Source: a virus
Length of the DNA stretch: 44,452 nucleotides
Strand: one strand, 5' to 3'
Virus record (IMG/VR): IMGVR_UViG_3300024265_000017
Location: 1 to 44,452 of that record
The translations under genes were made by a program, and so were the position numbers. The notes below the pieces were generated by a model. It was not told the origin of the DNA. It saw only the letters and a program-made list of their open reading frames with translations, and did no database searches. This document shows positions 1 to 28,438 of this stretch, one piece after another (positions within the stretch are counted from its first letter, which is position 1; each line of letters opens with the position of its first letter).

Positions 1-127
1 AGGACGAGGCTGACAGAGTACATCAACTTGTTTGGGCTACGCTTCACGAGTTCGATGACATGCCGTACCAATATACAGACTTCAAGTTCTCTGATAGAGT
101 GGACATTCACACCACCGTCTACTTCAA
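1..127. repeat. Left copy of 127-bp exact end overlap
   Basis: These bases are identical to 44326-44452. A single resolvase gene reads through the join with no frame break, so the window is a closed circle (or circularly permuted molecule) of 44,325 bp. The length of 127 equals a common assembler k-mer, so this is probably redundant assembly sequence and not a packaging repeat. Confidence 0.93.
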
Positions 128-15918: not shown

Positions 15919-15948
15919 ATTATATCATAGTTATCATATATTTGTCAA
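15919..15948 (-). promoter_or_regulatory. Strong sigma70-type promoter for capsid operon
   Basis: On the minus strand there is a perfect -35 TTGACA (15943-15948), an 18-base spacer and a perfect -10 TATAAT (15919-15924) preceded by TGA (extended -10). It drives leftward transcription through scaffold, capsid and tail genes. The same arrangement, including the flanking AGCCC before the -35 and TTCATA after the -10, recurs at 27584-27613. Confidence 0.88.
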
Positions 15949-27613: not shown

Positions 27614-27739
27614 GGGCTATTTCAACTTGCAGATAAAATATATTTGAAGTGGAATGGCTGTTAGAAGAAACAACCAAGTAAAGATTTGTAATTCCAAAAC
27701 ATACTAGATACAGTTCCCCCTTATCTAGATTAGTGGAGA

Positions 27740-27811
27740 GTGTACAGAAGGAGTCGAACCTTCACATAACCTATGCCACAGATAGGCGCACTACCGTTAT
27801 GCTATGTACAC
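27740..27811 (-). tRNA. tRNA-His (GTG)
   Basis: The 72-nt cloverleaf has a 7-bp acceptor stem (GTGTACA / TGTACAC), a D stem GCAT/GTGC, an anticodon stem CCTAT/ATAGG with loop CTGTGGC (anticodon GTG) and a T stem GAAGG/CCTTC with loop TTCGACT. No CCA is encoded. The base before position 1 is A and the discriminator is T, whereas bacterial tRNA-His normally has G-1 opposite C73, so aminoacylation may be unusual. Confidence 0.9.
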
Positions 27812-27896: not shown

Positions 27897-27996
27897 TGGA
27901 GATGTCGGGAATTGAACCCGAGTGTTGGTCAGCCTTGTCGTGGCCTTCAGCCATTCACAAGGACCTTGCATCGACCAATCGAATCCTTACATCCCC
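27897..27996 (-). ncRNA. tmRNA-like RNA reduced to the tRNA-like domain
   Basis: This 100-nt RNA begins GGGGATGT and ends ACATCTCC-A. The acceptor stem pairs with a G3-U70 wobble and A73, the alanine identity set of tmRNA. After the acceptor comes GGATTCGA at position 11, the hallmark tmRNA motif. The T arm is TCGGG-TTCAATT-CCCGA. A P2-like helix (TTGGTC / GACCAA) leads to one long hairpin (CCTTGT/ACAAGG, then TGGC/GCCA). The pseudoknots and the tag-encoding message of a normal tmRNA of about 350 nt are absent, and CCA is not encoded. It may be a trans-translation decoy or SmpB/AlaRS-binding RNA; function is inference. Confidence 0.65.
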
Positions 27997-27999
27997 AAG

Positions 28000-28038
28000 A
28001 CTCCCGACATTGTAGCATTATTAAGAGGCTTCGGGAGT
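28000..28038 (-). other. Hairpin immediately 5' of the tmRNA-like RNA
   Basis: ACTCCCGA and TCGGGAGT form a perfect 8-bp stem around a 23-base AT-rich loop, ending 4 bases before the first base of the tmRNA-like RNA. It may be a leader-processing structure; no T run follows, so it is not a classical terminator. Confidence 0.5.
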
Positions 28039-28060: not shown

Positions 28061-28100
28061 CCTTGACTACAGTAGAACAGGTGTTCTACTGTAGTCAAGG
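28061..28100. repeat. 40-bp near-perfect palindrome
   Basis: Nineteen-base arms (28061-28079 and 28082-28100, starting CCTTGACTACAG) are perfectly inverted around GG. The centre contains TAGAACAGGTGTTCTA (28073-28088), identical in its arms to the operator at 30130-30145. No T run follows in either direction. It could be an operator, a cruciform-forming origin element or a transcript-end structure. Confidence 0.85.
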
Positions 28101-28410: not shown

Positions 28411-28438
28411 ATTATACACATAACTGCTTATTTGTCAA
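28411..28438 (-). promoter_or_regulatory. Sigma70-type promoter for small gene and RNA cluster
   Basis: The minus strand has TTGACA (28433-28438), a 16-base spacer with TG just before the -10, and TATAAT (28411-28416). It overlaps the end of the upstream gene and reads into the 52-residue gene and the tmRNA-like/tRNA region. A second TATAAT is at 28369-28374. Confidence 0.75.

Follow-up and report, generated by a model that had tools for sequence, protein, structure and literature searches.

The window, by which we mean the whole 44,452-nt stretch of DNA that was analysed, encodes tailed-phage proteins and carries on its minus strand a short RNA cassette, comprising the 100-nt RNA that is the subject of this report and a tRNA-His gene. 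The initial annotation had described the 100-nt RNA as a phage-encoded tmRNA consisting only of the tRNA-like domain (TLD). tmRNA is the bacterial RNA that rescues stalled ribosomes; the process, trans-translation, is found in nearly all bacteria and serves as a target for antibiotics. The features of the locus, from 5' to 3' on the minus strand, are as follows.

28411..28438, minus: sigma70-type promoter TTGACA-16-TATAAT, a perfect 12/12 match, upstream of the RNA cassette
27897..27996, minus: TLD-only tmRNA-like RNA, 100 nt, matched by RF00023 and by the class model R2; its 3' end is the discriminator A73 (27897)
27990..27996, minus: acceptor stem, 5' strand, GGGGATG, from the sequence; G3 is the wobble partner
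27979..27989, minus: stemless D-like loop TAAGGATTCGA, a tmRNA hallmark, from alignment to the R2 consensus
27973..27978, minus: P2, 5' strand, TTGGTC, a perfect 6 bp with GACCAA; P2 covaries in the class
27933..27962, minus: inner hairpin CCTTGT-gaa-TGGC...GCCA-cg-ACAAGG, from sequence and fold, in the place of the pseudoknots and tag frame
27925..27930, minus: P2, 3' strand, GACCAA, 6/6 pairs with TTGGTC
27905..27921, minus: T arm TCGGG-TTCAATT-CCCGA, 5/5 pairs
27898..27904, minus: acceptor stem, 3' strand, CATCTCC (with U70), 7/7 pairs including G3-U70
27738..27811, minus: tRNA-His(gtg), called by ARAGORN (Rfam tRNA, 59.3 bits), 86 nt downstream on the same strand

Read from 27996 to 27897 on the minus strand, the RNA has the layout GGGGATG-TAAGGATTCGA-TTGGTC-(inner hairpin)-GACCAA-CAC-TCGGGTTCAATTCCCGA-CATCTCC-A. 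The acceptor stem with G3-U70, A73, the GGATTCGA motif, the T arm and the perfect P2, as initially annotated, were all found in this segment. The loop motif GGATTCGA lies between the acceptor 5' strand and P2, and P2 follows the D-like loop immediately, as it does in tmRNA (RF00023); the combination of a stemless D-like loop GGNTTCGA with a TTCRA T arm is likewise that of tmRNA. Pseudoknots are missing, and both sequence and fold bear out the description of one hairpin in lieu of the pseudoknots and the tag message. The gene does not encode CCA, the trinucleotide CTC coming next after A73, so that host tRNA nucleotidyltransferase would be needed to complete the molecule. Folding of this strand was more stable than that of shuffled sequences (z = -2.75). 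One observation counts against a functional TLD-only RNA: the unaided lowest-energy fold opened the T arm, at -38.1 kcal/mol as against -32.6 kcal/mol for the tRNA-like fold.

We searched the whole record with the Rfam tmRNA model RF00023, and observed a single match, at 27996-27894 (46.7 bits, E 3.7e-19), in which model positions 1-374 are spanned by 103 nt and about 270 model positions are missing. The curated (gathering) cut-off of this model is 47 bits; the window RNA falls 0.3 bit below it, and a default Rfam scan missed it. A second covariance model, R2, was built from 28 ungapped 79-mers of TLD-only RNAs of other phages, with the window excluded (an earlier class model, R1, was discarded, its automatic alignment having put the acceptor stem wrongly). 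R2 scored the window RNA at 52.5 bits (E 5.5e-12), the second-best match in the window being 12.6 bits, and gave about 28 bits or below on controls that included full-length tmRNAs, permuted tmRNAs, ssrA attP sites and tRNAs. ARAGORN, which the initial annotation had proposed running alongside the Rfam models, called only the neighbouring tRNA-His in the locus region. By these criteria the window RNA is a complete TLD of tmRNA, far above chance. A larger, full-length tmRNA overlapping the same segment, the outcome that the initial annotation had named as counting against it, was also sought. The wider RF00023 fit, with a message region placed upstream (28150-27894), reached just 22.2 bits with many broken pairs, so that this alternative is unsupported and was rejected; by the same fit, an mRNA-like domain with a tag frame is absent at the locus.

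Pattern scans of IMG/VR yielded at least 168 loci that pass a structural test (an acceptor of 7 nt in which 6 or more pairs form, the sequence TTCGA 5-12 nt beyond it, and a T arm). After removal of two doubtful loci these represent at least 116 distinct TLD-only sequences, 98 of them 76-81 nt in length and nearly all in phage records. Among isolates, the class is found in Streptomyces phages LuckySocke, pSt2308 and BRock, in Pontimonas phage phiPsal1 and in Stenotrophomonas virus Jojan60; by BLAST, Streptomyces phage GiJojo has the same match as LuckySocke. We found no RNA annotation at the TLD-only loci in the isolate phage records examined, and ARAGORN calls of any kind overlap 3 of the 116 members; 18 of 20 sampled loci score above the RF00023 cut-off. 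A tRNA lies within 2 kb of 26 of the 116, and CCA is encoded in 29 of 113. The bacterial and archaeal genomes searched (257 Gb) gave 91 pattern matches, of which six pass the structural test, one of these (L340; 28.9 bits with R2) being set aside as doubtful. The genome-collection pattern recurs in at least 92 viral loci examined, 84 of which pass. When genomes were sampled with a strict filter, one of 396 from the phylum of L323 and three of 292 from the phylum of L270 were positive, each count including the starting genome. The class is thus mostly viral.

Several loci in these searches are mentioned separately. Pattern matches L002, L003 and L005-L007 were rejected as tRNA or permuted-tmRNA neighbours, or as chance. 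Two borderline candidates with altered D-like loops, in Microbacterium phage Armstrong (L252:1438-1527) and Stenotrophomonas phage QDWS359 (L253:1452-1533), scored 37.2 and 35.6 bits, respectively, with R2. TLD-only tmRNA-like genes with encoded CCA occur in apparently chromosomal cyanobacterial surroundings at L270:2383-2463 (Pseudanabaenaceae cyanobacterium LEGE 13415) and L306:6776-6856, and both assemblies also contain a full-length tmRNA; the L270 copy has in its vicinity tRNA genes as well as a VWA-domain gene and KptA, a setting suggestive of an RNA-repair locus. A further class member, L301:3956-4033, comes from a Prochlorococcus single-cell genome, where it sits on a contig of 130 kb; this contig is also present as a viral contig, which indicates a cyanophage carrier.

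Compensatory base changes in related phages, which the initial annotation had suggested looking for, proved strong across the class. In the 28 ungapped 79-mers, 95.7% of cells pair, compared with 71.3% when shuffled and at most 51% when slid; both sides change in 16 of 23 pairs, and the covariation score, 0.627, was reached in 0 of 500 shuffles, for which it is 0.158. P2 is included in this pattern, its mean perfect length (capped at 8) across 113 members being 6.3, compared with 1.7 when partners are shuffled. To these may be added results from a pattern that leaves the acceptor free: 75 of its 76 distinct matches have a 7-bp acceptor with G1-C72, G2-C71, G3-U70 and A73, and the remaining one has lost part of the 3' strand to a deletion. 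Pair 4-69, on the other hand, varies in the class among G-C, C-G, U-A, A-U and G-U, and in LuckySocke (GGGTCTG/CAGATCC) and BRock (GGGTTTG/CAAATCC) the surrounding pairs are changed while G3-U70 is retained. G3-U70 and A73 are identity elements for alanyl-tRNA synthetase (AlaRS), and contacts between the D-loop and T-loop are required for SmpB binding (PMC3968760). Conservation of G3-U70 and A73 while neighbouring pairs drift suggests that charging is under selection.

The RNA can be set beside several known systems. The tmRNA of Mycobacterium phage DS6A (tmID 11587) is listed as 'TLD only' (PMC4131195); the window RNA, compared with DS6A by description only, is of the same kind, a phage gene with little beyond the TLD, and differs in that DS6A is a single mycobacteriophage example whereas the window belongs to a different, divergent tailed phage. 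Standard bacterial and phage tmRNAs (RF00023), such as the full-length ones of Gordonia phages Sixama and GMA2 and Mycobacterium phage Bongo, have in common with it the acceptor with G3-U70 and A73, the D-like loop, P2 and the T arm, whereas the window RNA lacks pseudoknots and a tag frame and measures 100 nt as against about 350-420. Jakobid and oomycete mitochondrial tmRNAs (RF02544) likewise have no tag frame, nor do the Mallomonadaceae plastid tmRNAs, two plastid genes being ~65 bp long (PMC11915505); these organellar RNAs serve the cell's own rescue, whereas the window RNA is that of a phage, and no RF02544 match in the window is listed by Rfam. In permuted two-piece tmRNAs (RF04321, RF01850) the acceptor part is also a separate TLD-bearing RNA, but there a separate coding piece exists, and none was found here. 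The initial statement that known tmRNAs always keep a message-like region does not hold, given DS6A and the tag-less mitochondrial and ~65-bp plastid tmRNAs. The TLD-only tmRNA is as a kind already known but barely explored, and the window RNA adds a member. The breadth of the phage class and its invariant charging signal appear to be new; we found no paper on that breadth in the open-access literature, absence from which is no proof.

What such an RNA might do depends on its partners. No SmpB gene was found in 20 phage records with a TLD-only RNA (3 isolates among them), a control search being positive in bacterial genomes; with no SmpB encoded, the RNA must rely on the host for SmpB, AlaRS and EF-Tu. 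The same 20 of 20 records contain no second tmRNA match above cut-off. Nor does the inner hairpin appear to hide a short tag frame, a candidate that we rejected: in none of the frames were stop codons clearly enriched across the class, stops occurring in the inner part of 49, 43 and 43 of the 116 members per frame as compared with 41 expected from shuffles. The identity first proposed, a phage-encoded TLD-only tmRNA, is in this way upheld: a covariance model built independently recovers the RNA, many phages carry covarying members of its family, and a second tmRNA piece is lacking.

The reading that we consider somewhat more probable than all others together is that the window RNA is a phage tmRNA that has kept its function while shrinking to the TLD, and that it competes with host tmRNA. 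Transcription of the cassette is likely, as a perfect-consensus promoter lies upstream on the same strand, and the RNA would be transcribed together with tRNA-His and trimmed like a tRNA. CCA would be added by the host, and host AlaRS would charge the RNA with alanine by way of G3-U70 and A73. By means of its D-like loop, its T arm and P2 the RNA would bind host SmpB and EF-Tu, and it would then become a rival of host tmRNA, both for SmpB and for the ribosomes that stall on broken messages. As it carries no message, it would append no degradation tag, and the infected cell would have its trans-translation blocked or diverted. That the RNA is expressed, charged and bound by SmpB, and what it does to the infection on balance, are predictions from sequence. 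Competition for SmpB, AlaRS or stalled ribosomes, which had been offered at the outset as the mode of action, is the explanation that we put first, and it is not without precedent in print: a TLD-only-like molecule strongly inhibits tmRNA, chargeable or not, perhaps by titrating SmpB (PMC4131195). Since an unchargeable TLD also inhibited tmRNA in that test, inhibition alone would leave the invariance of G3-U70 unexplained.

The main alternative concerns rescue without a tag. An alanylated TLD-SmpB complex might enter stalled ribosomes as a tag-free rescue adaptor and take the nascent chain, the peptidyl-RNA then dropping off or being hydrolysed; ribosomes would be freed for the phage, and phage proteins would go undegraded. 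Invariance of the charging signal is expected if peptide transfer matters, and tag-less mitochondrial tmRNAs are kept together with SmpB (PMC11915505). Normal rescue, however, terminates when the stop codon of the tmRNA frame is reached, and the window RNA lacks it; we regard tag-free rescue by the window RNA as rather unlikely. We know of no experiment on release by a TLD alone. For the class as a whole we tentatively entertain a broader proposal, to which we give appreciably more credence than to the adaptor, though less than an even chance: that it is a dedicated, widespread phage class of tRNA-sized, alanine-chargeable, message-less tmRNAs, which would join host SmpB in entering stalled ribosomes and there receive the nascent chain, with tag-free rescue or a dead end as the outcome, rather than merely soaking up SmpB. 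A purely passive SmpB sponge, in which binding alone matters and charging is incidental, would agree with inhibition by the similar molecule whether or not it could be charged (PMC4131195); yet a sponge should not need the G3-U70 and A73 that are kept in 75 of 76 distinct members while adjacent pairs vary, and this conserved charging signal disfavours such a sponge, which we consider improbable.

That the RNA is a relic, whether of a tmRNA in decay or of an integrase that used ssrA as its attachment site, is very improbable. ssrA 3' ends do adjoin integrases in LilSpotty, Shandong1 and Milly, but the relics there lack the 5' half and reach at most ~16 bits with R2, whereas the window RNA has both halves, P2 and all pairs intact, and no integrase was found among the neighbouring genes tested. 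An integration-site origin was rejected on the grounds that real ssrA attP sites look different, and covariation of the class refutes the relic reading in the main. Two-piece tmRNAs occur in marine phages (PMC9004378), and a piece of a two-piece or full-length tmRNA with its message elsewhere in the genome was considered for that reason; with no other tmRNA match in the window or above cut-off in the 20 class records, the poor larger fit at the locus, and both RNA ends and a closed P2 within one 100-nt molecule, which leave no room for a second piece, we give it next to no weight. An odd tRNA with its anticodon in the inner hairpin, to which the tRNA-like size and the neighbouring tRNA-His might point, is just as hard to credit: neither ARAGORN nor the Rfam table has a tRNA call at 27897-27996, the D stem is missing, the loop of tmRNA is present, and we could find no conserved 7-nt anticodon loop in the inner hairpins of the class.

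The earlier record consisted of one TLD-only phage RNA, a curiosity; there are now more than 100 distinct and covarying ones. Copies of the TLD alone are common among phages, which probably use them to interfere with host ribosome rescue or to take it over. Class members occur in isolated phages with laboratory hosts, which makes RNA control of host ribosome rescue by phages directly testable, and from the invariant alanine signal follows a sharp prediction by which a ribosome-active RNA can be told from an SmpB sponge.

The surroundings of the window RNA gave some further observations. No close relatives of the window phage were found in IMG/VR by its terminase and capsid protein, the nearest isolate terminases being ~26% identical, and a close relative with the same RNA was not found. 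The inner hairpin of the window RNA exceeds in length those of most class members and, being atypical in this respect, suggests that the RNA may descend from a separate tmRNA reduction. Two perfect TTGACA-16..18-TATAAT promoters were found in the window, with 0.01 expected; the second, at 15919-15948 (minus), is just upstream of the gene that precedes the major capsid gene. Upstream of the RNA there is a perfect inverted repeat of 19 bp, its arms separated by a 2-nt loop (28061-28100). A weak match to abiF (RF03085) at 28002-28035 (minus; 21.3 bits against a cut-off of 37, E 0.006 for one family) lies in a hairpin of 8 bp immediately upstream of the mini-tmRNA, and 20 other class phages showed no such match. 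Possibly, this hairpin is a mimic of an abortive-infection RNA, or the match is due to chance. Finally, Gordonia phage Sixama contains an unannotated full-length tmRNA gene (L008:313-730), which is located between two tRNAs.
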